The position numbers were made by a program, and so were the translations under genes. Positions 19,328-60,200 of a DNA stretch of 64,000 nucleotides are shown here, piece after piece. Source of the DNA: an uncultured Isosphaeraceae bacterium (GTDB lineage Bacteria > Planctomycetota > Planctomycetia > Isosphaerales > Isosphaeraceae); assembly GCA_945957605.1 (NCBI GenBank), contig CAMFLR010000015.1:62001-126000 (forward strand), read 5' to 3'. Below the pieces are notes generated by a model that did not search any database, had not been told where the DNA came from, and saw only the letters and a program-made list of their open reading frames with translations. How positions within the stretch are numbered: the stretch's first letter is position 1; each line of letters begins with the position of its first letter.

Positions 19328-20848
19328 TCAGGCAGAGTCGCGCTTGATCTCGTTCGTGCGGATGATTCGCAAGAACCGAGCGGCAACTGCGCGATCGTCG
19401 AACGGAATCACGCGATCGGCGAGAATCTCAAACGCATTGCGCCCCTTGCCCGCGATTAACACCGCGTCACCTGGTGTCGCAATCGCAATCGCAGTTTCAA
19501 TTGCGCGACGACGGTCGCCATCAAGCCGAATATGTTCGGCCCAGTCAGTCGCTCCGTGCATCTGGTCGAGGATCTGTGCAACATCCTCGCCACGCGGATT
19601 GTCTGACGTAAACACAACAACGTCTGCGCCGTCGTGTGCGGCCTTCGCGAGTGCCTGACGGTCGTTACGATCGCCGTAGCCTTCGGCACCAATCACGCAA
19701 ATCAGCTTGCCGTCGATGCCAGCACGCGTTTGCTCGATTGCAGCGGTCAGTTCTTCGACCGAACGGGCGGCGTCAATCCGAACCTCGAACGCCTGCCCTT
19801 CCTCGACGCGTTCAAAACGCCCGGGAATCCCTTCGACTGCCTCGAGTCCCTTGATAATCGTCTCGAGTGCAATGCCGCGATGGAACGCATACGCGACTGC
19901 ACAAAGTGCGGCTTGAATCGCCTCGATCCCGCCGAGACGCAACGTGATCATCGCGTCGACGCCTTCTGAGATCAGGCGGAATCGTGAGCGATTCGCTTCG
20001 TACCACTCAACCTCGGCCACAAAATCGGCAGGTTTGTTGATTCCGATCGAAATCCGCCGCGCATCGAGATTCACTGCGCCCAGGATCTCCGAATCAGGAT
20101 CATCCTGATTCACAATCACGATCCCCTGTGGCTTTACGCAACGAAGGAGTCGCGCATACGCTCGCCGACGCTCAACAAGAGCGTCCGCATCCTCGTCGGA
20201 CGCCTCGCGGACGCACGGCACGATCGCCGCACCGAGACTGAGGCCGTCGGCGATGCCTGTCGATTCGAGCGTCGCCTGCGACACCTCAACGAGGGCGCCC
20301 ACGCAGTTGCGTTTGAGCATTCCCGCGAGCATGTTTGAGAGAGAGCCAGCGTCTGTAAGACCGGCTCCCATCGGCCGCACCGCGTGACCATCAGACCAGC
20401 CGTGCGGTCCTACCTGACCGAACCGCTCGCCCTGGACGTTGCAAATCGCATGAATCAGCAACGTTACAAGCTGCGCCTCGCGGCCACCCGCAACGCCGAC
20501 GACATCGAGCCGAGTCGAAGGATCGCCCGCAAGCGCATGGCAGAGCCGGGAATAGGCGGAACGGGTCGAGGGAACGAGAATTTGGCGAGGAATTTCGGGG
20601 TGAGGCCGATCGACGATAACCGCCGTGGCCCCTTGCGCCAGAGCCCGAGCGACGAGGGTGTTACCCTGCGATTCATCGTCGCCAATCGCGACGAAAACCT
20701 GCCCCGGCTTGAGTTTACCAGCGTCGGCCGAACAGCCGGAAACTTCTAGGTCGCGCCCGCCAACAAACGTGGCTTCGGGCAACAACCGCCTCAAACTCAC
20801 TGAAGGCGACGCCTTCTGCGGCGAACGATCGACAAACCAGCGCACCAT
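19328..20848 (-). CDS. MurE-like Mur ligase paralogue with lost catalytic motifs (probably inactive)
   Basis: A 506-residue protein with the three-domain layout of MurE. MurE is the ligase that adds the third amino acid to UDP-MurNAc-dipeptide in the cytosol. Retained signs of descent are the N-terminal domain ending GQVFVAIGDDESQG, VNQDDPDSEIL, PGRFERVEEG, and SDNPRGEDVAQIL (the DNPR motif that reads diaminopimelate in active MurE). The ATP-binding loop GTNGKTT is replaced by GGREAQL near residue 124, with no Lys. The substrate motif SSH is VSQ, the DYAHTPD motif is DAARSVE, and AGKGHE is AGKGRN. ATP use is therefore unlikely. ATG 20848 has AAGGAGG 8 bases upstream. Despite these losses the frame is intact, so the protein is presumably under selection, perhaps as a binding or regulatory protein. 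Confidence 0.82.
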   Translation of the reverse strand: MVRWFVDRSPQKASPSVSLRRLLPEATFVGGRDLEVSGCSADAGKLKPGQVFVAIGDDESQGNTLVARALAQGATAVIVDRPHPEIPRQILVPSTRSAYSRLCHALAGDPSTRLDVVGVAGGREAQLVTLLIHAICNVQGERFGQVGPHGWSDGHAVRPMGAGLTDAGSLSNMLAGMLKRNCVGALVEVSQATLESTGIADGLSLGAAIVPCVREASDEDADALVERRRAYARLLRCVKPQGIVIVNQDDPDSEILGAVNLDARRISIGINKPADFVAEVEWYEANRSRFRLISEGVDAMITLRLGGIEAIQAALCAVAYAFHRGIALETIIKGLEAVEGIPGRFERVEEGQAFEVRIDAARSVEELTAAIEQTRAGIDGKLICVIGAEGYGDRNDRQALAKAAHDGADVVVFTSDNPRGEDVAQILDQMHGATDWAEHIRLDGDRRRAIETAIAIATPGDAVLIAGKGRNAFEILADRVIPFDDRAVAARFLRIIRTNEIKRDSA

Positions 20849-21033
20849 GGTGAGGGCCTCCTTGCCGCAAACTCTTTGGTGATCACAACGCATTTCGCGT
20901 GAGAGAACGACGTCGATGCATCCTGTCGCGTCGCGATCCGCAGCAATCTCTGGGCGCGAGAGTGCCGCGGATCGTCATTCTGCTTCGCCTTCGAAAAAAA
21001 GGCAATGCCAGTCGCCGCGATGCTCAAATCGAC

Positions 21034-22986
21034 TCAATGGCAACAGCTCATCTTCTTGCTCGAAGGCGGAATGTCGTTCGCCGGATTCTTCGTGAAAAAG
21101 CCCGAAGGCTTGAGCATGAAGCCAATATAAGCAGTTGGCATCACTGGATAATCTTCCGGCCTTGGAATGTGCGTGTGACCAAACGTGTACCAGAAAACGA
21201 CGTCGGTGTTCTCCGTCGAGCGATCTGCCTCGGTCCACGCGTTCAAACCCGCTCCGCCCGACGATTGGTTGGGATAATCCCCTGCGCCATACCGTTCGGT
21301 GGTGTCATAAGGCGTGACCCAAACGTGGTTCTCAACAAACCCCGCACGCTTGCGCCACCAGGCGTTCGGCGACGCGAACGGCACGGAATTGTCTCCTGGG
21401 AAGAAGCGATATCCGACCGGCTCGCCAACATGATTGAGCTTCGCCGGATTGACGATCTTCCACGTCCGGGCCGACTCGATGTTCAGCTTGCCTCGCGCTT
21501 GTTTTTCAGTCGCCAGCGGCGTGGCCTGAACGTGAAACGCGTTCTCGAACGGATTCGCAACATCAAGCGGATCGGCCACCACATCGAGCCGTTGAACCGT
21601 GTTTGGCATCCCATCGAGGTCGAAGTCGAGCCGCATGTTGAAGAAGTGCTGATGATTAGGCGCGTAAAGCTGCGGAGAAACCAGCACGCCATGCTTCGGC
21701 TTCTCGCCCGGCTGATACGCTCCTAGTGAAAGGATACCAGTCAGCTTGATCTCGAACTGGATCGATCCGTCCTGATATAAATACCAAAAGAAACCGTACT
21801 CGTAATTCTCGACCGTAGAAACCGACGACACGACCAGCCTGCGCGAGCGCCTGACCTCCGGCGCATTCGGCAATCGGCGATCGGTGTGCTTCCAGAGAAT
21901 GCCGTAATCTTCCTCGTGCATGCAAACCGCGTTTTTGACCGTAAACGGATTACCCCTACTGTCGCACAAATGAGCGTCGAAGTATCGAATCAGGCCGAGG
22001 CAGTCGCAACCAAGCACCAGGCTATTCGCGCACATCCCCATCCCATATTCGCCGACATCGAACGCATTCTTCCTGCGCTGGGAGGGCGTGGGATCGCCAT
22101 ACGGCACAACCATTTCTGTAAGCGACGCCCGATAAAGCACCGAACGTTCCTGGCCATCGTCGTCATAGCGCAGGTGATGAAGCGTCAAGCCTTCGCGGGC
22201 ATTGAAGCCGATCACAAACTTCCACTTCTGCCACGCCACCTGATAGCCATCAACCTCGAAACTCGGCCCATCCGGCTGAGCGATTTCGAGCGGCTTGATG
22301 TCGGTGCGAAACGTGTCGATCCGCTCGGCCGAGTAGTTGCAATCGCCCGGCGGAATCGGCCAATGACCGTGATCGTCGATGCGAATCACTTCCATCTTGT
22401 TCAAATCAACTACCGGCCGCAGCCCTTCAATGGGCCGAACGTAACCGTTGTCGGTGGGATCGGTCCGCAGGAAGCAAAGTGGCCGCGCGAGGCGCCTGGA
22501 GCTGTCTTCCGGATCGCCGTAATTGCCGGCGCTCCAGATATCGACCATCACCAAACTCGTGTCGTCAACGCCCGTGTGCTCCTTCAATTTCGCCTTGAAT
22601 TCAGGACTGCGCAACACGGCCTGCTCGCATTCCTCCTGCTCGTCGATCGTCATCGTCGGCTGCACGCCGGGGATGTGCTTCCACGAGGTCAGCGTGCCTT
22701 CGGTGATCGAAAGGCTCGCCTCGTAACACGCGTTCAACGCATTGTCGAATAGAACCGCGTTCGCCTCGCGCGGCAATTCAGCAAACCCACCCGACTCATG
22801 AACCAGCGCCTTGTCGGGTTCCTTGAGCGATATCGACACGAAGCGCGTGGTCGGCGTGACTTTCCCTTCACGCTTGAGAATCAGGACCGCCGCGTTCACT
22901 TCGTCCGCAGTGAGCGGTTCGAGCGCGTGCCGGCCCGTGCTCGTCGGATGGCCGTTGAGCGGAGTGATGTTCACGAGTGTGGACAT
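21034..22986 (-). CDS. Copper amine oxidase (primary-amine oxidase)
   Basis: A 650-residue copper/topaquinone enzyme that oxidises primary amines to aldehydes, releasing ammonia and hydrogen peroxide. The cofactor precursor Tyr is in STVENYEYGFFW (consensus NYD/EY). Copper ligands are the His pair in NHQHFFNMRLDFDLDG and a third His in FGHTHIPRPEDYPVMP. The catalytic base Asp region VGEYGMGM is also present. Length fits the bacterial/fungal family. There is no signal peptide (MSTLVNITPLNGHP), so a cytosolic location is suggested, unlike the periplasmic enterobacterial TynA. The short C-terminal tail ends MSCCH, with a vicinal Cys pair. ATG 22986 is preceded by GGGAGAGA, which is part of a long hairpin described separately. 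Confidence 0.95.
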   Translation of the reverse strand: MSTLVNITPLNGHPTSTGRHALEPLTADEVNAAVLILKREGKVTPTTRFVSISLKEPDKALVHESGGFAELPREANAVLFDNALNACYEASLSITEGTLTSWKHIPGVQPTMTIDEQEECEQAVLRSPEFKAKLKEHTGVDDTSLVMVDIWSAGNYGDPEDSSRRLARPLCFLRTDPTDNGYVRPIEGLRPVVDLNKMEVIRIDDHGHWPIPPGDCNYSAERIDTFRTDIKPLEIAQPDGPSFEVDGYQVAWQKWKFVIGFNAREGLTLHHLRYDDDGQERSVLYRASLTEMVVPYGDPTPSQRRKNAFDVGEYGMGMCANSLVLGCDCLGLIRYFDAHLCDSRGNPFTVKNAVCMHEEDYGILWKHTDRRLPNAPEVRRSRRLVVSSVSTVENYEYGFFWYLYQDGSIQFEIKLTGILSLGAYQPGEKPKHGVLVSPQLYAPNHQHFFNMRLDFDLDGMPNTVQRLDVVADPLDVANPFENAFHVQATPLATEKQARGKLNIESARTWKIVNPAKLNHVGEPVGYRFFPGDNSVPFASPNAWWRKRAGFVENHVWVTPYDTTERYGAGDYPNQSSGGAGLNAWTEADRSTENTDVVFWYTFGHTHIPRPEDYPVMPTAYIGFMLKPSGFFTKNPANDIPPSSKKMSCCH

Positions 22987-22991
22987 GGATT

Positions 22992-23040
22992 TCTCTCCCG
23001 GAATCCAATGGAAGAACGACGCCACGTTCGCCGGGAGAGA
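22992..23040 (-). promoter_or_regulatory. Hairpin sequestering the ribosome-binding site of the amine oxidase gene
   Basis: TCTCTCCCGG (22992-23001) and CCGGGAGAGA (23031-23040) are a perfect 10-bp inverted repeat with a 29-base loop. In the minus-strand mRNA the second arm is the amine oxidase ribosome-binding site (GGGAGAGA), ending 5 bases before the ATG. Pairing would hide it. This is a structural prediction; the trigger is unknown. Confidence 0.5.
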
Positions 23041-23331
23041 GCGGCGTGCGTCCGTGGCGATTCCGTTTGAGGGATCACCCAGACGCAAGAGACTGGCGTT
23101 ACTTCATGACTGTCGCGCACCCGAGACGACACGTCAAGCACTTGTTGCACATCGCGCGAACCGGCAATTCGCGGCAGCAGGCTCAAACGCCAATCCGCCA
23201 TGTTAAATAAGATCCTCAGCGCATTCGTTGTAAGGCCTTCTGGCCAATGGCAAAATATGGGCACTGCCTCGAATCAAATTGCGTGGGAATCGCCCAGCAT
23301 CAGGGGTTCCCCGACGTGCGAGATCAGCCCG

Positions 23332-40769: not shown

Positions 40770-43700
40770 TTATTTTGTGACTGTTTCGTATTTCGAGGAA
40801 GGTCGCGACAATAACATCGCCTCCGCCTCGCGTTTCGCAAACTGTGTTTCTGCGATCGACGGCCAGACGTTACCCCAGTCGGCCTTTTGCACTTGCGTGC
40901 TAAGAATCGCATTCGCGCTGTTGAGAAACGCCTTGGCCGCATCCTGGTTTCCTCGTTTGCACTCAGTCATGGCGCAATAATATTTGTCGAGGGCGATGCT
41001 AAGATCGTCGGGCTTTGATTCTTCGGCCTGCCGTAGCCATTGCAAAGCGTCGGCATGTTCGCCTGCGCGGTAAGCTGCCATTCCGCGAGTAAGCTGGAGC
41101 CAGGGAAGTTGGTGTCCAGTGCCGATAATCTTAAGATTCTCATCAGCAAGTTGGTGAATGCGTTTAAGTTCAAACGCGGACGAATCGGTCATCACGGCAA
41201 GCTTGGCCGTACGTTCTCGACACGGAAAACAAGGTGATTTGCTGTACGTTTCTAGCATCGACCGGACGATCAACTGATGTCCGTCGCGATGGTTTGCCTG
41301 AAGACACACCAAGCCAATTTGGAAGGCGAACCATGAATCGACATCCTCGTCATTCCAACGATACGAAGGATGAAGTTCGAGCGCACGATGCGAGTCGGCG
41401 TGAGCCAATTTCCACTGCTGGTGACGTGCGAAATAGCGCGCCCGGTTAATGTATCCCACATGATCCGTCGCGCGGCTTTCGATCGCCGCCGTCAATCCGA
41501 TGAGTTCTGCGTCGGTGGCAACTGCTTCGCCTGCGGCCATCGGTGCAAATGGATCTTGCGGGAAGTCGAGATCGAGCATGAGCAGCCGAAAATCGGCACG
41601 ACTCCGAAGCGAATCGAGATCTCGATCGTGATCCATGTGGGCTCGATCATGCATTCCGCGTTCGATCGAACTCCGCAATGCATCAACTGCACGCTTCGCC
41701 ATCAGTTCCCGTAAAATATCTCCATCAGGAGTGTGCGGCACGTCATCTTGACTGTTAAATTTTGCATATGCACACGCAAGATTGTAAGTCTCGATGTGCG
41801 ACGGAATTGAAATGGCTTCCAGCTGGTCGCAAAGAACTTGAGAAAGCTCCAAAGCTCTATGACGCTCGTGTACAGCGCTTGAAGTGGCATCGTACGCGGT
41901 TGCATCATTGACCGCAGGCTTGCCGAGCTCCGCCGATTGGCCATTTCGCCTCCCGGCCGGATTCAAGAGCTCGTGCGCCTGTTGAAAGTCGCGAAGCGAA
42001 TCGGCAACATGATCGACCGCAAGCGACTTCAAGCCGTCCCAGATTAGCACATGGGCCCGCCTGACCGACTCGATGTCCGACGCCCCGCTACGATTCATCA
42101 CCACAACGCTTGGTGTTCTTCGGCGCTCGTCGACCGTCTGCTCGACTGTTGCCACGGGAACAATTGAAAGTTCATCCCAGGCGAGACCAACGTCTTGCAA
42201 CCCCTTGCGCAGTTCGGCAATGTCCCACAAATCGACGTCGCAATTTGTGCCGACAATCATTAATCGCTGTCCTCTATGATCGAGGCTGAGATCGCGAATC
42301 GAGCCTGTCCAGGCCGGCAACTGAAATATAGGTTCGAAAGTGTCTGCATCATGAAACACGACGTGGCGATCGGCTCCCGCACTAACCAGCAAGCTGCCGT
42401 CAGGCGTGAAGGTCAGGCGTTCCACGCTTCCATCATGTGCATCGTTGAGCCGTTGAACCGACTTGAAGTTTGCCAGGGAAAGCCCCTGAATCGATCCGTC
42501 ATTGAATCCCACTATCAGCCGGCTGCGTTTGCGATCGATTTCCAACTTTCGAACAGTGCGATTCTTGAATTCGGCGACTCGCTCGATGCGCCCTGAATCG
42601 ATGTGATAGGCGAGCACGGCATCGCCACCATGCGTCAGGAGTCGCGCGGGCGCTTCGAGAAAAAACATCGAGAAAACGCGCGATCCTGTGCGGAATTCAA
42701 AGATTTGCTCACACGTCTCCAGGTTGTAAACCGCGACGACTCCACCCGATCCTCCGCACGCAATCCGCTTATTCGTGGGGTCGAACGCAACCGACTCGAG
42801 AATCTCCGGCGGTAAAAATCGCTTGAGCGTTTGCCCGGTGAATCCATCGCGAATGACGACCTCGCGATCGCTCGGCACCTTCCAGCTCGAAGTCGCAAGC
42901 AACGCACCATCGGAGCTGAATTCCATCGCCATTACCGCGCCCGAGTTCGGTTCAAGAGGCACGTTCGAAATTGACGACGGTCCTAAATCCCAGCGCGATA
43001 CCTCCGTGTAACCCGAGGTCATGAAGCGATCGAGCGAAGGGTGCGCTGCGACTTCGCGGAGTTCGACACGATGGCCTGCGAGCCAGCGCTGCACCTTATT
43101 CCGACCAGTAATCTCATAGATGTAGACGGTTCGTTCTTCATCTGTGCTGGTCGCAAGGTACTCGCCGGTCGGCGACCAAACAACGCGCCGAACTGCGTTT
43201 ATACAGGGCAGCGTCGCCAGATTCTGGCCGGTGCGTGTATCCCAGATTTTTGCGGTATAGTCGAGGCTCGCCGTGGCAATCCAGCCACCATCGGGACTGA
43301 AGGCAACGTCGTAGACCTTTTCGCGGTGCCCACGGAGTGTTCCATATTGTTCGCGCTTAATCACATCCCAGAGAATCGTCGTGTGGTCGGCAAACGCAAC
43401 GGCCAGAATCGATCCATCGGGACTGAATGCTAATGATAAGGGCCGCTCGTGCCGGCCGAGGACAACGTTCTTCTGATCGGCGGCAATCGGGGTGAGAACG
43501 ATTTGTGCATTCTGTCCGCGCGCGAGCCAATTGCCGTCGGGACTCAGGGCGAAAATCGACTGTGGGAATCTCTGGAGCACCTTTCGGCTAGGTACGTCGT
43601 AAACCACGACGCCACCAGCGTCGCTCCAACCCACGGCTATGCGCCGGCCATCCGCGCTCATCATCAGCTTGGTCGGATGGTATTTTCCTTCGGTAATCGC

Positions 43701-45770
43701 AGCGGTCCCGTCGCGATTGCCCTGCATATCGGTAAAGACAACGCCAGCTTCCGCCGTGGCGATTACGAGCCCCTTGTTATTCGGGAGAAAACAGAATTTC
43801 TGCGCTCCCGGTCCGCTCACTTTCCATTGCTTCCAGGCCGAAACGTGCGACTTACTCGCCGTGTCCCAGAAATCGAGCCCGTTTCCGCGGCTGGCGGTCA
43901 CAAGCGCTTTGCCATCGGGATTGAAGGCAAATGATCCAAGCTCGTTCGCCATGAGGTCGACGCGAGAATCGAGATGGACATCCGGCGTACCAAGCGCTGC
44001 GGCTGCCTCGGTGCGCAACTCGCGGAGGTCGCGGCGCGGGGACGCGAGTTTGGCAAGCCGTGAGAGAATTGCCAGCGCCTCGTCGCGCCAGCCGGGCTCG
44101 TGACCAATTCGTAGCGCCTTTGCTTCACTGAGCATCGCGCGATAAGCCTCACCCACGGCCGACGTGCGCGCAGCGCGTTCTGCGGACGCCGCGCTTCGCT
44201 CGTTCGTCGCAAGTTCCGACATTCGCCCGGCAACGACCAACGACACAATCGTCGACACGACAAGCATCGCCGCCAACACCGACGCCAGCACGGCAACAGT
44301 GGGATGATGGCGAGCCCACCGCGCGTAACGCTCGGCGGGAGATGGACGCCGCGCCAGAATAGTTTCGTCGTTGAGAAACCGGCGCAAATCCTCGGCCATC
44401 GCGTCCGCAGTCTGATAGCGCCGCCCGGGCTCCTTGTCGATCGCCTTGAGAATGATTGTTTCAAGATCGCGCGGAATGCGTTCATCAAGCGCCCGCGGAC
44501 GCGGCGGCTCCTCACCCTTGATACGTTCGATCAGCCCCAGCCGATCGGACGAATCGAATGCCGGCTGAAGCGTCAGCAGTTCGTAAAGTGTAAGCCCGAG
44601 CGCGTAAATGTCGGCGCTGGCGTCGCCTTCGCCGCGAAATCGCTCGGGCGCCATGTAGCGCAGCGTTCCCACAACGTCGCCCGTCGCGGTCAGTCCCTCA
44701 TCGGTCGATTTAGCGAGGCCGAAGTCGGCGATCCATATCACGCCCGTTGTGTCGAGCAGAAGATTTGAGGGTTTGATGTCGCGGTGGAGAATCCCGCGCA
44801 CGTGTGCATGCGCAAGCCCTTGTGCGATCTGACGGCCAATTTGCGCCACGCTCGAATAAAACGGCCGGCGCCGGCCCGACGAACCAATCACCGAATTACC
44901 TGTGCTGCCGTTGATGAGGGCGGAAGTGGAGGTCGTCGCGGTCTGTAGGGAATACTCCAGACCTGACAGCGGCAGGTGCGCGTCGACGACTGTCTTGGCA
45001 ACCGAATTCACTCCGAATTGCTCGGTAACAGTTCGAGCGTGGTGACTGGAATGGTCGTCGGCTACTGCTCCCAGCTGGCCGATATGGAACTGGCCGGTTC
45101 GAACCGATCGCGCGAGCTGTTCGACGCGAATTCCAACGGGTGAATTGGGTGGTGCGTTGGCAGTCCGTGTCACGCCGAGCGGCACCGTAACGCCATCGCC
45201 CGTAGGCACGACAGTTTGAGATGGCCGGCCGTCTTTCCCTTTCAGCCGTCTGAGCTCATCGATGACCTGATCGAGCCCCTGCCCCTGGATGAGCTGCATC
45301 GCAAAATACGCGACATCGCCGCTGTGGCCGACTTCAAAGATCGGCACGATGTTGGCGTGGTGCAGTCGAGCCGCCGCCTTCGCCTCGCGCCGGAAACGCT
45401 CGACGGCCTTGCGATCCTGCGTGATATGGCTGGGAAGGACTTTGAGTGCGACACGCCTGCCCAGTGAGATTTGCTCCGCCTCGTAGACGACGCCCATGCC
45501 GCCGCGGCCAATTTCGCGAATCAGCCGGTAATCGCGGAGTTGCGTGGAACCGGTGGGAATCGTGGGAGATGCGGCCGAAGGGTCGCGTTCAAGCGAGAGA
45601 TCCTGCTCGATCATCACGAGCGCGGGGAGCAGCTCGCGAATCTGTTCGGCAAGTTCGGGGTGAAGTGTCGCGAGGTCGTTGATGCTGGGTCGTTCGCCGG
45701 CGCGGTAGCGGGCAAGAAACTCTTCGGCTACCTGCTCGAACGGATCGCGATCAAGGCTGGGCTCGTTCAT
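40770..45770 (-). CDS. Ser/Thr protein kinase with WD40 repeats and TPR C-terminus
   Basis: A 1,666-residue protein. The N-terminal region (1-80) matches the short domain common before planctomycete kinases ([20 protein letters not shown]). The kinase domain (about 81-480) shows [12 protein letters not shown], the catalytic Lys in [28 protein letters not shown] and APERFRG. It is interrupted between helices D and E by an insert of about 140 residues (Ser/Thr/Gly-rich). A membrane helix follows ([20 protein letters not shown]), then about ten WD40-like beta-propeller blades (about 590-1240) and TPR-like helices to the C-terminus. The kinase is cytosolic and the propeller extracytosolic if the single helix is the only one. 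The start overlaps the ECF sigma stop by 4 bases (ATGA), linking kinase and sigma factor. Confidence 0.95.
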
Positions 45771-48182: not shown

Positions 48183-48257
48183 TTTCTGTGCCAATTCCCC
48201 TGTGATTTGCACCCGACTCGAACAGTCTTCATCGCCGCACACCCATCGAGATTCACC

Positions 48258-51200
48258 ATGAATATGCGTCCCTCGAAGCGCAAGCAAAACGCCGCCCGTT
48301 CGTCGATGAAAGCGTGGCAGCGGCGCCTCCTGGAAATCGAGCGGCTCGAAGACCGCACGGTGCTCTCGACGTTTACCGTCACCAATACCCAGGATAGCGC
48401 GACGGGTAGCTTGCGCTGGGCGGTGGCGCAAGCGAATACGAATCCCGGTGCCGACTCAATCGTGTTCGATCGCTCGGTTTTCGGTAGTCCACAAACGATC
48501 GCACTTACATCTGGCGCCATCACATTCACTGACACAGCCACGACGACAGTGACCGGTCCCGGGGCGGGTTTGGTCACGGTCACCGCGAATCAACTGTCGA
48601 ACGATTTCGTCGTGAACGCGGCGGCGTCGGCCAATCTCGACACGCTGACGATCACCGGCGGACGAGCCACGACCGGCGGCGGTGTTTATAGCCAGGGTAC
48701 ACTCGTCATCTCGAACAGCCTCATCACCGGCAACACGGCGACGACCGGCAAAGGCGGCGGTGTCGACAACTCGTCCGGCGTGCTCACAATCTCGAACAGC
48801 GTTCTCAGCAACAATTCCGCGTACCTGAACGGCGGCGGCGTCGATAGCCTTGGCGATATCACACTTACGAACTGCACGATCACCGGGAATTCCCAAACGG
48901 GAAGCGGCGGAAGTGGCGGTGGCGTCGGGCAGTACGACGGCAACGTAACGATCTCCGGTTGCACGATCAGCGGAAATACCGCGACGTCTCAAGGTGGCTT
49001 GGAACTCGACACGGCTGGCCAAAGCGCGACGATTTCCAACACGACAATTAGTAACAATACAAGCACTGGCTCAATCGGCGGTATCGGTCTTTACTACGGC
49101 TTGTACACGCTGACGCAATGCACGATTACAGGCAACACGGCGGCCGGATCGACCGGTGGAGTGTATTTCCGCAGCAATTACAACTCAACGATTACCGACT
49201 GCACGATCATCGGCAACTCCGCATCTAGCGCTGGCGGGCTTTACTCTCAGATGGGAAGCCCCAAGCCCAAGAATTCGATCATCGCGGGAAATACCGCCGC
49301 AACCAGCCCGGACGTCCAGGGCCCGGTCACGTCGCTGGGAACAAACCTGATCGGCAAGACCGACGGCAGCAGCGGCTGGATTGGATCCGACCTGCAGGGC
49401 ACCGTCGCCGCGCCTTTGAACGCGTTGTTGTCGCCACTGGGTAACTTTGGTGGAACGACTCAAACAATGCTGCCGCAATCGGGCAGCCCTGCAATTGGTG
49501 CCGGCGACAACACTGGCGGTCCAGCGACCGACCAGCGCGGATTCACTCGCTCGACGGGTACGGGCGGGAACATCGGTGCCACGGAAGGCACGGCGCTCGT
49601 TGTTACGACGACGGCCGATAGTGGCGCTGGCTCGCTGCGCACCGCCGTCGCATCGGCCAACGCGGCTGCAACCGCCGACGCGATCATCTTTGATCCCACA
49701 CAGTTTGGCACGCCGCGGGTAATTACGCTGACGACCGGACAATTAACGCTGAGCGATGCGAAGACGACCACCATCACGGGCCCAGGCGCAAGCCTGCTGA
49801 CGATTAGCGGCAATAACACCAGCCGTATTTTCAACGTTCCCGCCGGCGCATCGGCCGCGATGTCGGGGCTCACTTTGACAGGCGGCAAGGTCGCGGCTGG
49901 GAACGGTGGTGCAATTTTCTCACAAGGCTTGCTGGCGCTGACGAATTGCACGGTGACCGGTAATTCAGCTCTCACCGGTTTGGGAGGCGGCATTTATAAC
50001 TTTGGCGGCCGGCTCAACGGAGGCGGACTCACGCTTACCGGCTGTACGATCAGCAGCAATTCGGCCAATAGCGGTGGCGGCGTCGGGACCACGGGTTACC
50101 CGACGACGACGATGATAAACAGCATCGTCACCGGCAACACCTCAACATTTCAAGGTGGTGGATTCTACGGCGGCGGAAACACACGTAATACGCTGACCAA
50201 CACAATTTTCAGCAACAACCGCGCGGGCGACGGAGGCGGCGGTATATTCCTCATCGCCAATGCCGTTGTTACGAATTGCACGGTGACTGGGAACTTCGCT
50301 CAGATCGGTGCGGGTGTCTACTTGCTGTCCGTAACCAACGGCAAGATCGTAGGCAGCAATATCAGCGGCAACACCGTCACCGTTGGCGCGAGCGGCGGCG
50401 GTATTGCGATTCAATTCGGCTCGATCACGGTTGCCAACACCACGATTTCAGGCAACTCTGCGTTCGGCGGCGGTGGAGTGGTCACGATCAGTGCTCCCTC
50501 CACCCTCACGCTGACAAACAGCACGATCGCGGGCAACTCGGCCACCGGCGGTACTGGCGGCGGAATCTTGAACGCCGGCACGGTCACACTCAACAACACG
50601 ATCGTCGCCACGAATACGAGCAATGCGGGCGCCAGCGACATTAGCGGCACGGTGTCCGGTTCTAATAACCTGATCGGCACCGGCGGCGCGGGCGGGCTGG
50701 TAAATCTCGTCGGCGGCAACCTCGTCGGTGTGGCGAATCCTGGCCTGATGCCGCTTGGAAACTACGGCGGTCCAGTCCAGACGATGGCGCTGCTTCCCAC
50801 AAGCCCAGCCATCAACGCCGGCAACGACACGCTGGCGATCGATCCCATAACGAGCCAGATACTCGGTGGCGACGCTCGCGGCGCAAGCCGCTTCAACAGT
50901 GGGCCGGTCGATATCGGCGCGTTCGAGATCCAGGTCTACCTGGTGACGACGACGTCTGACGTGATGACTGACGGCCAGACAACGCTGCGTCAGGCGATCA
51001 TCGGCGCGAGCCTCTTTTCCGACAGTGTGGTGCGGTTTGCGATTTCCGGAGCTGGACCGTTCGTCATCACGCCCAGTTCTGCGCTTCCCTCGATTGGTTC
51101 GAGCGTCTTGCTCGATGGTACTTCCCAGCTGGGATACGCCGGTACGCCCTTGATTCAACTTGCCGGAAGCGCGGGAGCCGGCGACGGAATCACACTGGGC

Positions 51201-54200
51201 ACAGGATCGGATGGCTCGACGGTACAGGGATTCGATATCGGCGGCTTCACTGCGGGTGCGGGGATTCGCATCCTCTCTAACAGGAATCTTATTCGCGGCA
51301 ATTATCTCGGCACCAACGTGACGGGAACTGCCGCGAATGGCGACAAGTACGGCATCGCGATTCAAGGCAGCCAGAACACGATCGGCGGACTGACAGCCTT
51401 GAGCCGAAACGTCATCTCAGGCAATCTCCAGGGCGGCATTGCGATCGCGACCGGTTCGAGCAACGTCGTTCAAGGAAACTTCATCGGCTTGAACGCGGCT
51501 GGCAATGCCGCCATCGGCAATACGCAGTTCGGCATTCAGATCGCGAACGCAGCGAACACGACCATCGGCGGAACTGCGAGCGGGTCGGGCAATCGAATCG
51601 CCGCGACGCAAGTTCTGGGATCCAACCCAGGCTCCGGTTGGGGCATTGATGTTGCTGGTGTCGGCTCGTCGGGATCTGTGATTCAAGGCAACACGATTGG
51701 TGGCTCTGGCACTTTCGGCAACGCGAGCGCGGGGATTTTCGACGATCTCGCGCCGATCACGATCGGCGGAACAATCGCTGGCCAGGGGAACGCGATCGCC
51801 TTCAACGGCGGCGCAGGCATTTCGCTGACCTCAGTCGGCGCGGCGAACAGCCGGGTTCGACAGAACTCGATCAACGCCAACACGGGTGGTGGCGTAATTG
51901 TTGGTGCTCCCACTGCGGCTTACCAACCGCCCGTTATTTCCACGGCGTCAATCGTCGGCAATACACTCAAGGTGCAAGGCGTCGCCTACCCTGGTGCATT
52001 GCTCGAGTTTTACATCGCATCGTCGGGCCAGGGTTCTGTCTTCCTCGGCTCTGCCGCCGAAGGATCTCTTGCCGACAACAATGCAACCTCGGGCACATTC
52101 AACTTCGCGCTGACCATCCCCAACGGCGTGAGCGTGACGGCCGGAAATCCGATCACGGCGATCACTGTGGCAACACCCATCTCGGGTTCGAATCCGCCCC
52201 TCAAGGATACGGTTTCGCCATTCGCGACAGCAGTCGTCTCCGACTCTGGCCCAGCGTTCGGCGGACCGGTTGTGAACGCCGGCGGCGGCGGAACGATTGT
52301 CGCAGGTTCGACGTTCACTTCGCAGGGATCGTTCACCGACACCACCTCGCAAAGCTGGACCGCGACAGTAAACTACGGCGACGGCTCGGCCACGCAATCG
52401 CTGCGCATCAATCCTGTTTCACTGACAGGCTTGAACGCCGATCAGTACAGCCAGGTCGCCTCGGCATCGTTCAACCTCTCGCACCAGTTCGCCAAAGCCG
52501 GCAACTACACAGTCGTAGTAAGTGTGACGAACGACGCCGGCCTGACCGGTACTTCGAGCTTCGTCGTTCAGGTCGCAGCCGCCGCGCCGGTCGTGAACAA
52601 CACCGACATCCACATCGCGCCGACAGCGAATCCCACGAATACGTCATCGCCGACGATCATCAACGAAAATCAGTCGGTCATCCTCACCGGTAAGTTCACC
52701 GACGCAAATCCAGGCGCGACGCACTCGGTCAACATCATCTGGGGCGATGGCTCCACGTCGCTGGCTACCGTCAACGAGGCGTCCAGCACGTTTACAGCGA
52801 CCCACACCTATCTCTCCCCTGGAACAATCAACAGCAGCTCGGGCATTTACACCGTGCAGGTTGCTGTGAACAGCAGCGTGGGCACAACGAGTTCGACGAC
52901 CTATGGTCTGTTCTACATCCAGGTCAACGACGTCGCGCCGAGCAACCTGACGGTTACGCCCGACGCCTCGACGATCGCCGAAGGCGGCATCATCCATCTC
53001 AGCGGTTCGTTCCAGGCAACCGGCCCGATCGACACACACGTCGTCACGATCGACTGGGGCGACCAATCTACCGTCACCACCTTCGACCTCGCTGGCGGCG
53101 TGCTCAGCTTCTCGGGCATCGCGCATCAGTACCGCAGCTACGCCCCAGGCGCAGCGGGCACGCCGTACGCAATTCAGGTCTCGGTCAACGACCTGTATCA
53201 GCCGCTCTCGCCTGCGAAGGCCACCACGTCGGTCATCGTCAACGCGACTGCACCGTCGAACATCGTGCTGACGCCCTCGGCCGGCACGATCAACCAGGGA
53301 CAATCGATTGCACTTGCCGGTTCGTTCGCGGCGCCAGGTACGCTCGATCACCACGTGGTATCGATCAACTGGGGCGACGGCTCGAAGCTCACCACCGTCT
53401 CTCTTGCTCCAGGCGTGACCACATTCTCTGGAATCACGCATAACTACGCCACCAACTCTTTACTCGTTGCCGGCGGCGGCTACACGATTACCGCGACGAT
53501 CACAGATCCCGCGCGGCCTGCGGCAGTCGGAACCGCGACGACGAGCGTGATCGTCCGCGACATCGCGCCTACTGTGTCGAACCTTGCACTCGCCTACGCC
53601 ACCGGCGGCGCAGTTCCGGTGCTGCCCCAAACTGGTGGCGGATCGGCCCTGCAAGTGAATGCGGGATCGAGCGTCACCTTGACGGGCAGCTTCACGACGC
53701 CCAACCCGAAGGATAAGTACTCACTCCTCGTCTCGTGGGGCGACGGCACCTCATCGACCGTACCCACTAGCTATCTCTCGAGTCATACCTTCACCGCAAC
53801 GCACCTCTATTCCGACCGCGCACTCGGCGTCACGCTCAACAACATTCATGTCAGTATTACTGACCTGGAAAATACGTCGGGCTCAAGTAATCTCACGCTT
53901 GCGGTTGCTCACGTGAACCCAGTCGCGCACGTCGGTTCCGGCGGCATCAATTCGGGCAACCAGGTGCTAACCGCCGCAGTCGCCGCGGGCAACACCTCGC
54001 CAATCGCTTCGTACTCGTGGAACGTCACCGCGCTCAATGGCTCCTATTCGCTCACGACCAGTTCCCCCACAGTCGCGCTGCCGACGAATACCAATACCGA
54101 CTACCTCGTCCAATCGAGCGTGACCGATACCCTCGGCGCGACATCGCAGACTTTCACCGCGGTCGTGCACGTTCTCGATAACACTTCGTCGAACTTTGTG

Positions 54201-57200
54201 GTTCCCCAACCTACTGCAAACGTCGACGCCGTCGTCGTCTCCGGCCTCTCTGGCAATCACGTGATCGACGGTACCGGCGTCAGTGTGCCGATCGTTTTCG
54301 ACGGCAACGGTCAAGAAACGTTCATCGGCAACTCGTCTGACGACGTCTTCAACCTGCACACCGACAATTCGATCGCTTACGGCAACGGCGGCAACAACGT
54401 CTTCAATCTCACGCCGAATTGCACGCTTTACGCCGTGGCCACGGGCGGTAACAACACGCTGAACTTCTCGTCGTCGACATATGGCGTCACGTTCGACATG
54501 AACAAGACGAGCGGCCAGGTGCAGGATGTAAATCCTGTGGCCGATCCAGGCAATCACTTCGTGAGCGTGAACGCAACCGGCGGTGCGACGTTCTCGACAC
54601 TCGTCAACAGCGCAGCCGGCGGCGATACGATCACCGCGGCCTCGAACTCGACGATCATCGGTAGCGGCGGCAAGAACTCGGTGCTCGTGAACAGCACCGC
54701 GGCGAGCCCCGTGAACAATGTAAGCATCGTGAGCGCGGCCGATGGCGATACGCTCACGCTCAGCGGTGCGAGTATCGGCAACATCAGCTTCCAGGGCGAC
54801 ACCGGCGCGAATCTCCTGACCAACACAGGAACCATCACTGGCAACGTTGTGTTCTCAGGTGGAGCAGACACTTCGACGTTCACAAACTCGGGCTCGATCG
54901 CAGGCAGCGTGAGCTTCGGCGGCGGGGCTGATGGCGGTAGCTTCACCAATACCGGCAGCGTAACGGGAACGCTCACATTCGGCGGCGGGGCCGATACAAA
55001 TACGCTCGTCAACTCGGCTGGTGCAACGCTTGGCACAGTGATCTTCAATGGCGACGTTGGCGCCACGACATTTACAAACAGCGGCTACGCGAGTTCGATC
55101 GTCTACAACGGTGGTTCAGATACTGATAGCTTCACAAATACATCCGGCGGCGTGGTTGGTTCCCTCATCTTTAACGGCAGTGCCGATACCGACACACTCA
55201 CCAACGCCGGCACTGCAGGCAGCATCACCTACAACGGCGGTGCCGATGCCGGCTCGCTGACCAACAGTGGCACTGTCACTGGTTCGATCACATTCAACGG
55301 CGGCGCCGATGCCGGCACGCTGCTAAACACAGGGACTGTGAGCGGAACCGTTACGTTCGGCGGCGGATCCGACACCGACACGTTTACGAATGCTGTCGGC
55401 GGATCGGTGGCGTCGGTGGTCTTCACGGGTGGCGCCGATTCCGGCACGCTGATCAACAACGGCACGGTCACCGGCTCCGTCAGTTTCGGCGGCGGATCTG
55501 ACGCGGGGACGATCACCAATAACGGCACAATCACCGGGACAGTCAGTTTCGGCGGCGGAGCCGATAGCAACACGTTTACCAATGCGACTGGGGCGTCGGT
55601 TGGTTCGGTCATATACACCGGCGGAGCCGATGCTGGAACGGTCCTGAACTTTGGCGCCGTGACCGGGTCGATCAACTTCGCTGGCGGATCGGACGCAGGT
55701 TCGTTGCTGAACACCGGAACGGTCGCAGGGTCGATCGTTTACACGGGCGGTGCCGATACTGATTCGCTCGTCAATCAAGGAGCGGTTTACGGCGGCATCA
55801 GCTTCAGCGGCGGCGCCGATGCCAACTCGTTCACGAATACGGGCAGTGTGACGGGCACCGTTACCTACACCGGCGGGGCCGACACCGATTCATTCACGAA
55901 CAACGGCACGCTCTCGAACGTGATCTTCTCAGGCGGGGCCGATGCCAACACATTCACGAACAATGGCACGTTTGGCTCAATCACATACACAGGCGGTTCC
56001 GACTCCGACACGCTGATCAACACTGCAACCGGCAGCGCCGGTGGGGCGATCATCTTCAATGGCGACGCCGGTGTCGACCAGCTTATCAACCTTGGCACGC
56101 TCTCCTCAGTCACATACACCGGTGGGTCTGATTCCGACACGCTCCTGAATCCCGGAACGATCTCGGGATCGGTCGTTTTCAATGGCGACAGCGGAGCAGA
56201 TTTGTTCCAGAACGGCGCGAACGTGAACGGCGTGTTCGTCGCGGGTACCGTCGGCTCGATTACATACAACGCCGGATCTGATACCGATACGCTGCTCAAC
56301 CCCGGCATTGTAACGGGCGCGATCATATTCAACGGCGATGCCAGCGCACCAGCAGGCACGGTGATGGGTGCCAAGCAGGTGATCAACACCGGCCGCGCAG
56401 GGTCGATCGTCTTCAATGGTGCACTCACGGCGAACGGCACGAACGACTTCTCGGCCGACGCCGGTGCGGAGACTCTGGCGAACTACGGCAGTGTTGGCTC
56501 GATCGTCTTCAACGGCGACGGCAATTCCGACCTGCTGATCAACCAGGCGAGCGGGGTTGGATCGATCGTCTTCAACGGCGGCGGCGACACGAATGTGCTC
56601 ATCAATACCGGATCGAATTTCGGTACGATCAGCTTCCAAGGTGACGGCGGCGTCGACACCTTCATCAACACTGCGAACGGCTCGTCGAGCTCGCATCTCA
56701 TCTTCAACGGCGGCGGCGACACTGGCACGCTGTTGAATACAGGTTCGGGGATTGGTGTCATAAATTTCACTGGCGATACCGGCTCGAACACGCTGATCAA
56801 CGAAGGTTCAAGGATCGGCCAGATTACGTTCGGAGCAGGCGCCGACGGCGGTGCCTTCTTGAACGCCGGCAATAACGTGTCGACGATCACCTTCAACGGC
56901 GGTGCCGACACGAACGTCTTCCGCAACGACGGTTCGCAAGTTGGCACAATCAACTTCAACGGCGACGTGGGCAGCGGCTACTTCCTGAACAACGGGTCCG
57001 TCGCAACGATCAACTACAACGCCGGGTCCGATACCGACACACTTGTGAACAACGGCACCGTCGGCAGCGCGAGTGGAACAGACACGGTCGGCGGCATCAA
57101 CTTCGCCGGCGACGGCAGCGCTGATGGTTTGCTGAATACGTCGACTGGCACGATCAACGGCCTGATCTTCACCAGCGGCGCGGATGCGAATCTGCTGGTC

Positions 57201-60200
57201 AATCAAGGAACGATCACGAACGCCACAGCCAATTTCCAGGGTGACGACGGCGTCAATCAGTTCGTCAATCAGGCTGGCGGCACGGTGTCGAACATCACCT
57301 ACAACGGCGGTTCCGATACCGACACGTTCACCAATTACGGCAACCTGTCGAACGTCACGTACAACGGCGACACCGGCTACGGGTCGATGTACCTGCACGG
57401 CACGCTCAATCAAAACATCACTTATAACGCGGGCGCCGATGGCGATCAGTTAATTATTGGTCCCGATGCCACAGCGGTTTCGACGATCAACTTCAACGGC
57501 GACGGCGGTACCGACTTGCTCGCCAACGCGGCAAACGGCGCGACGAACATCACGTTCCAGGCAGGGTCTGACGCCGCGAACTTCTGGAACTTCGGCAACA
57601 ACGTGAGCAATCTCACATTCCTGGGCGGCGGTGCCGATGCCTCGTTCAGCAACTCTGGCAGCGGCGTGACGGGAATCGTCTTCAATGCCCGCGGCGACAC
57701 AGGGGCCGACTCGCTCTACAACAGCGGCGACAACGTCGGCACGATCTCCTTCACCGGCGGCGCCGATACGAACACCCTGGTGAACACCGGCGCGAATACG
57801 GCTTCGATTCTCTTCAACGCCGGGTCTGACACCAACACGTTCACGAACACCGGGTCGGGTGTCGTCTCGATCATCTTCAATGGCGATACCGGCGTCGATT
57901 CGCTCATCAACTCCGGGAACAGCGTCGGCACGATCCTCTTCAACGGCGGCTCGGATGCCGATTCGCTCGTCAACACAGGCTCGGCCGGGACGATCAACTT
58001 CCAGGGCGATGGTGCGGCTGCGACGTTCACGAACTCGGGCCCGGTCAATACGCTGATCTTCAACGGTGGTGCGGACTCCGCATCGTTCCTGTATTCAGCG
58101 ACTGGACCGGCGGGATCGACGGTCACATTCACCGGTCACGGCGGCGGAAATATTTTCGTCGACTCGGGCTCGGCGGGCTCGATGACGATCAGCCTGGGCA
58201 CGGGAGACAACCAGGCCGTCATCATGACGGGTGCCACTGGCAACGTCGCAATCACCGGCGGCGCTGGCAATAACACCTACATTTTCAGCGGCACGCCGAC
58301 GGCGAACGTCTCGCTGAATCAGCCGCTCTTCGCCACCACCGGGACGATGACGAGCTCGGGCAACGGCCTTGCATTCGTCGCCAATCCGACCAATCCCGCA
58401 GGCTTTGCGGAAGGTACGAACACGCTCGACTTCTCCGCCTACACCGGCGGCGGAATTTCTCTCGACCTGATGAATACGTCCGCCCAGACGATGACCGGCG
58501 GCATGAAGCTCACGCTCAGCGATCCTGAAGGTATCGCCAACGTCGTTGGTACGCAGTTCGGCGATCAGATCAGCGGCAACATGCGTCCCAACGTGATCAG
58601 CACTGCGAATCTCCCCGACTATCGTCTCGCCGGCCAGACCGGTGGAGCTACGAGCACGCCGTTCGCGCCCGACGCGCGAACACAATGGGTCTACCTCGAT
58701 TTTGACACCTACACAGTCGCGGGCGATCACGTTTATACAGCCGCCGAACGTACGGCGATCCTCACTCGCATCGAACTCGACTATTATGGCCCCGATCCGA
58801 CGAATCCCAGCGTCCCCAACTTCGCGAATCGTTGGTTCGACGTCGCGCTCACCAACAACCGTTCAGACATTCCCGCCAACCTCCTAACGGCCGGCCAGTA
58901 CGCCACGCTCTACTTCAATCGCACGCCACCATCGGGCCTGCCTGGCGGCGAGGCGAGTGAGGTCGATTTCGGCAACACGAACTTCGGCGGATACGCGTCG
59001 ATTCAAATCAACGGAATGGTCGATGGCGGCGGACAGCCAGCTTCGATCGATCCCGTCACTGGCGCCGATAACTTCGCGATTTTGAGCGGAAAGATTGGCG
59101 CCCACGAACTCGCTCACCTTTTGGGAGTGCGTCACTCCGACGCATTCGGCCCAATTGGTTTCGGCATCCACACGCCCCCCGGCACTTCCATGTTCAACCC
59201 AACCTACGAAGGAGCAGCAGGCGCATTTGAAACATTCGACCATTTGATTAGCTCACCGGCCACGGTCGGCTCCGACCGCTTCAACGACCTGCGTGCGCTC
59301 GACTTCGGCCCGCGCGAGGCGATCAAACTTGCATTCGCCTCGCGCGGGACGACGCTCGTCGCATCCGCGGGCACACACTCGTCAACCGCCTCGGCACAGT
59401 CGCTCGCCCTCGCGCCGCTTTCTGTGCCCAACACCGATGTGAACCTGGCCGAACTCGAAAAGGGCATGAATTTCCAGGTCGCTGCGCTCGACGTTCAAGG
59501 TACAATCGGCCTCGATCCGACCACGCATCGCGCAGCGCCCGACTATTACACAATCAGTGGCCAGAAAGGCGATATTTATACGTTCGAGGTCGATTCGCAG
59601 GAACTCGCCCGCCTCGGCGGCATCAATACGATCGACTCGGTCCTGACAGTTTACGACGCCAATGGCAACGTCGTTGCCTTCAACGACGACCAGTACGAAG
59701 GCACCGACTCTCTGCTGCTCGACGTCACGCTGCCCTCGACCGGCACCTACTACGTCAAGGTTGCATCATTCGCCGCGTCTGCTGACGCTCCGGCCTACGA
59801 CCCGACAAACCCAACCAGCCCGCTTAACCCCAGCAACCTCGACAGCATCCTCAACCCGCTGAATCCGAACTTCAGCCAGGATGCGCTCAACAGCTTCCTC
59901 GCTGCCAAAAACGGCACGGCAACTGGCCAGTACGACCTCTTCATGTACCGCTTCTCGCAAGCTGACCCAACCGTTGCCGATGTGCATAACGTGCTCGTCG
60001 CGCGAGGGGCCGGCAGCACGCTGATGGGGTCGACGGGCACCGACACGTTGATGGGACCGGCTGGTACTATCATGAGCGACACGAGCACCGGCCCAGGCAG
60101 CCAGGTCACGCTGACGGTCTCGAACTCGAATCCCTCAGTTGACGTTCTCTCGCATTTCCAGGATACCGTGACGCTCGTCGGTCAGACGGGATCGACACCC

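Follow-up and report, generated by a model that had tools for sequence, protein, structure and literature searches.

A putative MurE pseudoenzyme retained in the bacterial family Isosphaeraceae

MurE homologues in plastids and planctomycetes

The closest described protein is MurE, the UDP-MurNAc-Ala-Glu:DAP ligase represented by the profile TIGR01085. The protein studied here, which we call pseudo-MurE, resembles it in the three-domain fold, the full-length alignment, the DNPR signature and an apparently vertical descent within planctomycetes, but it lacks residues of the ATP, Mg/His and UDP-MurNAc-peptide sites, scores under the profile cut-off and comes from a genome without the pathway. A second comparison is offered by plant MurE (PAP11). 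In the accessible text of PMC12681378, MurE homologues are placed in the plastid RNA polymerase complex and plant MurE is considered a possible scaffold. PAP11 shares with pseudo-MurE the same fold and its retention where most Mur enzymes are missing, and in many angiosperms it likewise keeps DNPR while the MurNAc contacts are eroded. It differs in belonging to a known complex, in being said there to retain many catalytic residues, and in its longer N-terminus, residue 11 of the pseudo-MurE model aligning to residue ~231 of the 8r6s_Q chain.

For planctomycetes, the accessible text of PMC5352709 reports murB, murE and mraY in Paludisphaera borealis, which would thus hold 'several but not all' peptidoglycan genes. 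PMC4432640 describes essential peptidoglycan genes in all planctomycetes analysed; neither Isosphaera nor Singulisphaera is mentioned in its main text. Peptidoglycan is reported for Gemmata in the available part of PMC5147048, and this paper and PMC12283558, as far as accessible, describe the dcw cluster as eroded in planctomycetes. The accessible text of PMC10632474 describes the mur genes of Planctopirus limnophila as non-essential and murE as semi-conserved in the class, findings that offer a possible path to loss of the pathway. The available parts of PMC3906078 and PMC12402505 add nothing further on murE. No description of a pseudo-MurE in planctomycetes or other bacteria was found in the literature searched, which covered few subscription papers and in part only accessible text, and this does not show that none exists.

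The sole MurE-family gene of its genome and its motifs

The window, the whole stretch of 64,000 nucleotides analysed here, spans positions 62001-126000 of contig C15 in an 8.84 Mb assembly that is 95% complete. Pseudo-MurE is encoded on its minus strand by an uninterrupted 506-codon frame (Table 1). An earlier sequence-only reading had claimed an intact frame, a good ribosome-binding site and a terminator; the ORF with its translation bears out the first and a perfect AAGGAGG the second, whereas a scan past the stop found no terminator-like site (2 sites observed in the region against 2.2 expected). A copper amine oxidase gene lies directly upstream on the same strand (21034-23088, minus), and elsewhere in the window two open frames are very long, with 5094 codons at 48207-63491 and 1666 at 40770-45770. 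No neighbour of the gene is constant across 26 contexts (the window and 25 named-genome loci), and no conserved operon partner was found among them. The sole shared neighbour typical of a cell-wall region is an RsmH-like (MraW-like) gene in three contexts (L044, L047 and L048), recognised by eye from its sequence rather than by a family search.

Table 1 Coordinates of pseudo-MurE, its motifs and related features (window positions unless a locus is named)
Feature	Position	Strand	Basis or remark
Pseudo-MurE gene, 506 aa	19328..20848	-	ORF and translation, Pfam matches, fold match to MurE
Shine-Dalgarno sequence AAGGAGG	20857..20863	-	8 nt 5' of ATG (20846-20848), perfect; sequence reading
Family-specific N-terminal tail MxRWFxDR...PSVSLRR, residues 1-30	20759..20848	-	identity 0.78, the family's most conserved part
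Former P-loop, now GGREAQL, residues 121-127	20468..20488	-	alignment
Former SSH, now SQA, residues 190-192	20273..20281	-	alignment
Newly conserved middle-domain stretch, residues 226-275	20024..20173	-	identity windows; Arg228 adjoins former carbamyl-lysine position
Former DYAHTDD, now DAARSVE, residues 359-365	19754..19774	-	alignment
DNPR, kept, residues 416-419	19592..19603	-	alignment
Former AGKGHE, now AGKGRN, residues 466-471	19436..19453	-	alignment
Middle-domain remnant of pseudo-MurE	L236:838-1527	-	open frame, G006/G023 genus
Middle-domain remnant of pseudo-MurE	L237:779-1522	+	open frame, G006/G023 genus
murB of the same genome	L244:7088-7966	-	Isosphaeraceae MurB without C-terminal Glu
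Overlapping fossil cluster MurC-like, MurB, FtsQ-like (in that order)	L244:6112-9320	-	frames of the same genome

The profile search matched pseudo-MurE to TIGR01085 with an E of 2e-65 and a score of 221.5 bits, short of the curated cut-off (257.3). The Pfam domains Mur_ligase_C (6.5e-21) and Mur_ligase_M (7e-7) were matched over cut-off and the Mur ligase N domain under it (16.4 vs 21 bits). An AlphaFold2 model, built on 22 aligned family sequences including its own (the remaining 21 share 35-62% identity with it), reached a pLDDT of 85.4 and a pTM of 0.77. Its best solved structure is T. maritima MurE 4bub (Z 38.7, rmsd 2.6, 476 residues; TM 0.85/0.88), and the three-domain layout read from the sequence is borne out by the M and C domains together with this fold match. 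A moonlighting role with the transcription machinery, analogous to that of PAP11 in the plastid RNA polymerase, would fit the top Foldseek E-value of the model, which goes to PAP11 (8r6s, 8.6e-43), and the angiosperm pattern reported in the accessible text of PMC12681378, in which the MurNAc contacts are the least conserved. We consider it extremely unlikely: PAP11 would be expected among the structural neighbours of any MurE, T. maritima MurE ranks higher by Z and TM, and the long N-terminal region of PAP11 is missing from the 506 aa of pseudo-MurE.

The gene had been called a paralogue, and this does not hold. Searching its genome with the protein returned the protein itself and one chance-level match, and the three Mur_ligase_C matches over cut-off are pseudo-MurE, FolC and a degenerate MurC-like gene, with no MurD/MurF-like gene among them. 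A second, active murE was found by neither search. Pseudo-MurE is thus the sole MurE-family gene of the assembly and, with no genuine murE, murD or murF in the genome, has nothing to be paralogous to; its relatives give the same picture. It had also been argued that absence of any other murE would indicate an unusual but active enzyme. The premise is correct, but the conclusion fails, as the rest of the pathway is missing too (see below).

For the motif comparison, 86 matches were reduced to 64 distinct sequences and, by dropping a partial read (contig C163 of genome G004) and three Mur ligases other than MurE, to 60. These comprise 30 Isosphaeraceae (f1 in our labelling), eight motif-intact planctomycetes (seven from f2, one from f6), two sequences from f5 and 20 further sequences whose motifs are largely intact, including one planctomycete of family f4. 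The intact-motif reference set (n=28) spans several phyla. In the alignment, the motif readings proposed earlier (GGREAQL, DAARSVE, AGKGRN and DNPR, here D416-R419) stand, except that SSH aligns to SQA and not to VSQ, being lost either way. The broader claim that every catalytic motif had gone is correct for the P-loop, where GTNGKTT has left neither Lys nor Thr, and for SSH, DYAH and GKGHE; the Mg-binding-type Glu188, Arg344, the DDP motif and GKG are still there. At the positions of DYAH, SSH, HN..N and the carbamyl-Lys, which form the catalytic His/Asn/Lys set, the protein carries R362, A192, A310/A313 and Y231.

The same losses recur through the family. The DYAH His and the second Asn of HN..N are found in 0/30 Isosphaeraceae against 28/28 motif-intact MurE, and the SSH His in 0/30 against 22/28. 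The DH His (2/30), the GKGHE Glu (2/30) and the TTPD Thr pair (3/30 and 1/30) are likewise nearly gone where the reference set has 28/28. Half of the family keeps the P-loop Lys (15/30) and half the carbamyl-lysine (15/30), both 28/28 in the reference; GK[ST] is kept in 11 sequences, seven of which also have the carbamyl-lysine, and the Mg-type Glu in 26. Recurrence in 30 distinct sequences argues for more than chance. It looks from the alignment as if catalysis was lost at the base of the family and the P-loop later and repeatedly. The extent of loss differs between genera, and few members are as eroded as the window's protein.

A changed enzyme, that is, a ligase acting on another substrate or by another chemistry, at least among the members that retain GK[ST], would accommodate these 11 sequences, the lysine in seven of them, the Mg-type Glu and the intact fold. 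We regard it as unlikely, because in the window's own protein the P-loop Lys and Thr, the lysine and the entire His/Asn set are missing, and because none of the 30 sequences has the second Asn or the DYAH His.

Most of the 30 sequences, the window's protein among them, have lost the residues that hold UDP-MurNAc-dipeptide. The amino-acid pocket fares differently. Six positions, numbered as in E. coli MurE, are taken as DAP contacts, and in the Isosphaeraceae R389 is kept in 29/30, N414 in 26/30, R416 in 27/30 and G464 in 30/30, against D413 in 11/30 and E468 in 2/30. The window's protein holds five of the six. DNPR is complete in the window's protein, as claimed earlier, and in the family its N (26/30) and R (27/30) outlast its Asp (11/30). 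Four of these contacts (R397, N417, R419 and G467 in pseudo-MurE), kept in 26-30 of 30 sequences while the ATP and UDP-MurNAc-peptide sites are mostly erased, would suit a non-catalytic ligand sensor whose C-terminal pocket binds diaminopimelate or a similar amino acid and which reports on lysine/DAP metabolism. Such a sensor has a modest chance at best, since the GKGHE Glu and the DNPR Asp have largely been lost, the DNPR loop may be structural, and the strongest new conservation lies elsewhere in the protein.

Distribution, selection and shifted conservation

The family panel comprised 37 Isosphaeraceae genomes, the window's own and 36 others. A full-length orthologue without internal stops occurs in 27 of them; in the scan of named genomes, an alignment query found relatives where a single-protein query found none. 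Among the ten genomes without a full-length gene, G006 and G023, of one genus, retain only a middle-domain remnant of 230-248 aa in an open frame, the only match in G012 is weak and to a different Mur-ligase-like protein, the assemblies of G011 and G032 are incomplete (81% and 77%), and the others have no match. Across the class, TIGR01085 matches 189/248 genomes, 114 of them over cut-off. Several Isosphaeraceae exceed the cut-off (e.g., G030 with 322 bits), and automated annotation would therefore name them murE.

In a maximum-likelihood tree, with a midpoint root for drawing only, the 30 Isosphaeraceae sequences form a single clade (100/100) next to f5 and close to other planctomycete MurE, which suggests vertical descent of the gene from a planctomycete murE. 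The f5 sequences (L032 and L039) are another planctomycete MurE lineage that has partly degenerated, and their genomes likewise have neither PBP nor SEDS. They show the reverse of the pseudo-MurE pattern, with GTNGKTT and the lysine kept and DNPR lost; GKGHE is lost as well. Six f3 genomes (G038, G043, G047, G051, G053 and G056) have no MurE match to the query protein, no PBP and no SEDS.

Pairwise dN/dS was estimated by NG86 and YN00, and by NG86 only for G036/G015 and distant pairs. A comparison across relatives, set beforehand as a check on the claim that this is not simple decay, gave no neutral value. Three of the four closest pairs lie between 0.04 and 0.09 (G018/G031 0.043-0.079, G003/G022 0.065-0.084, G010/G027 0.062-0.091) and the fourth, G036/G015, at 0.19, which indicates purifying selection. 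The own-genus pair gave 0.11-0.18 with dS >1.5, and more distant pairs gave 0.20-0.45 with dS near saturation. The low ratios and the intact frames throughout the family rule out simple decay, and that earlier claim is sustained by the ratios, the single clade and the gained invariant residues described below. A slower decay, in which a relic gene is being lost and is conserved by inertia alone, could draw on the ten genomes without a full-length gene, two of them with a remnant, and on the uneven motif loss between genera. It is nevertheless very unlikely in view of the low ratios in three of the four closest pairs, the new invariant residues and the zero internal stops in 27 full-length genes.

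Conservation has moved along the protein. Over residues 1-30 the Isosphaeraceae sequences share a mean pairwise identity of 0.78, vs 0.47 among intact planctomycete MurE and 0.24 among the others; for domain 1 the values are 0.65, 0.49 and 0.43, for the middle domain 0.47, 0.46 and 0.42, and for the C domain 0.53, 0.53 and 0.50, where the argument is the pattern along the protein, as the intact set covers several phyla and absolute identities are not comparable. Windows of 20 residues over positions 181-230 fall to 0.34-0.39 in the Isosphaeraceae vs 0.50-0.59 in intact MurE, and those over 226-275 rise to 0.53-0.65 vs 0.25-0.35. Newly invariant are Arg228 (30/30 vs 2/28), Glu336 (30/30 vs 1/28), Trp4 (29/30 vs 0/28) and Asn260 (29/30 vs 3/28), and Leu106 and Ala107 are gained in all 30 Isosphaeraceae. 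Residues 1-13 have a pLDDT <50 in the model despite the highest conservation, as might be expected of a binding motif.

Missing peptidoglycan genes, Mur companions and a possible role

The pathway search set consisted of MurA, MraY, MurG, SEDS (PF01098) and the PBP transpeptidase (PF00905). MurA, MraY and MurG were each over cut-off in 0/37 Isosphaeraceae genomes, SEDS was found in 0/37, and 36/37 had no PBP, the one exception being G004 with three matches. By comparison, PBP and SEDS, with mraY and murA over cut-off, are present in all eight genomes of f2 (seven) and f6 (one); their murG matches are strong, four of the eight passing the cut-off. The window's genome has no MurA, MraY or MurG over cut-off and no MurD/MurF-like protein, PBP or SEDS. 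Its weak matches were identified individually: that to MurA is AroA (446 bits, over cut-off), that to MurG a lipid glycosyltransferase of the diglucosyl-diacylglycerol-synthase-like type, and those to MraY two WecA-like proteins. In G004, a MAG of the family, an intact-looking murE stands beside a PBP frame on contig C163 (L238). We rejected it as an exception with live murE and PBP, for this murE is nearest to the Myxococcota/Verrucomicrobia sequences of the set, and C163 is likely, though not proven, to be contamination; the PBP matches lie on C163, C423 and C498, and the foreign look was judged from C163. Thus the peptidoglycan machinery appears to have been lost in the Isosphaeraceae.

Two further former Mur enzymes persist in the family. 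Like pseudo-MurE, the MurC-like protein and MurB have lost active-site residues while their frames remain under selection. The MurC-like gene is present in 11/37 genomes (E <1e-60), with GTHGK and the double His missing in all 11 proteins as read from the alignment, and is less constrained than pseudo-MurE (dN/dS 0.17-0.21 for one compared pair, 0.23-0.30 in the own genus). MurB, by contrast, is nearly universal (58/59 genomes searched) and more constrained (0.007-0.10 in four pairs). Its conserved C-terminal Glu (LELE-I), presumably the catalytic Glu, is kept in 0/33 Isosphaeraceae, four genomes with partial or no MurB being left out, and in 7/7 f2, 6/6 f3, 1/3 f4, 0/4 f5 and both single f6 and f7 sequences. 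The Isosphaeraceae MurB is an orphan, without a MurA partner, and has probably taken on a new function. An FtsQ-like gene adjoins murB in 14/14 Isosphaeraceae and 5/5 f3/f5/f7 contexts. Of the two f2 contexts, one has it ~1.5 kb away and in the other it was not found; nor was it found in the one f4 context. The copy in the window's genome (protein P0002) matches POTRA with E 0.0034, under the cut-off.

A homologous fold with its catalytic motifs missing is what defines a pseudoenzyme, and to judge by its sequences pseudo-MurE is a real, family-wide one, presumably without catalytic activity. The earlier suggestion that it binds cell-wall precursors finds no support, as the UDP-MurNAc-dipeptide residues are lost and none of the 37 genomes has a MurA over cut-off to make UDP-MurNAc; nor is an active Mur pathway left that it could regulate. 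The observed homology, motif loss, constraint, pathway absence and shifted conservation are, in our opinion, best read as a pseudoenzyme retained as a binding or scaffold protein, a reading we hold with slightly better than even confidence, and pseudo-MurE probably does a new, non-enzymatic job. The Isosphaeraceae would have lost the peptidoglycan pathway and the MurE protein its ligase chemistry, while purifying selection would have kept the protein for binding. On its rigid three-domain Mur scaffold, the N-terminal tail with domain 1 and residues ~226-275 may hold a protein partner, and the partly kept DAP-type pocket may still bind a ligand. The kept fold and the gained N-terminal motif and middle-domain stretch fit such a scaffold. 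In a part of the family, nucleotide binding may persist as well, as suggested by the seven sequences with both GK[ST] and the carbamyl-lysine. Against the scaffold reading stand the absence of any conserved neighbour and the dispensability of the full-length gene in some genomes (10/37 without it), and the middle-domain-only remnant of G006 and G023 speaks against the N-terminal tail as the sole working part.

The setting of the partner would plausibly be the cell envelope or the division apparatus, where the MurC-like protein, apparently dead, and MurB, its presumed catalytic Glu lost, seem to persist beside an FtsQ-like protein; the link to division is drawn from this fossil murC-murB-ftsQ cluster and the cell-biological setting only. 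More tentatively, the Isosphaeraceae could be free-living diderms without peptidoglycan, in which three former Mur enzymes (MurB, MurC and MurE) serve, together with the FtsQ-like protein, as non-catalytic structural parts of an apparatus for the envelope or for budding division, as they would probably do in sister families too. If so, a 'ghost' division-and-cell-wall cluster works without the wall it once built. If murB, murE and mraY of the family are dead or diverted, the inference of peptidoglycan in the survey of PMC5352709, as given in its accessible text, would no longer hold for the Isosphaeraceae. Cultured strains, Singulisphaera acidiphila for example, would then allow a direct test of the long-disputed question whether peptidoglycan is present in all planctomycetes. 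Pseudo-MurE may then provide an entry to the machinery of FtsZ-less budding, as proteins that outlive their chemistry point to a structural job.
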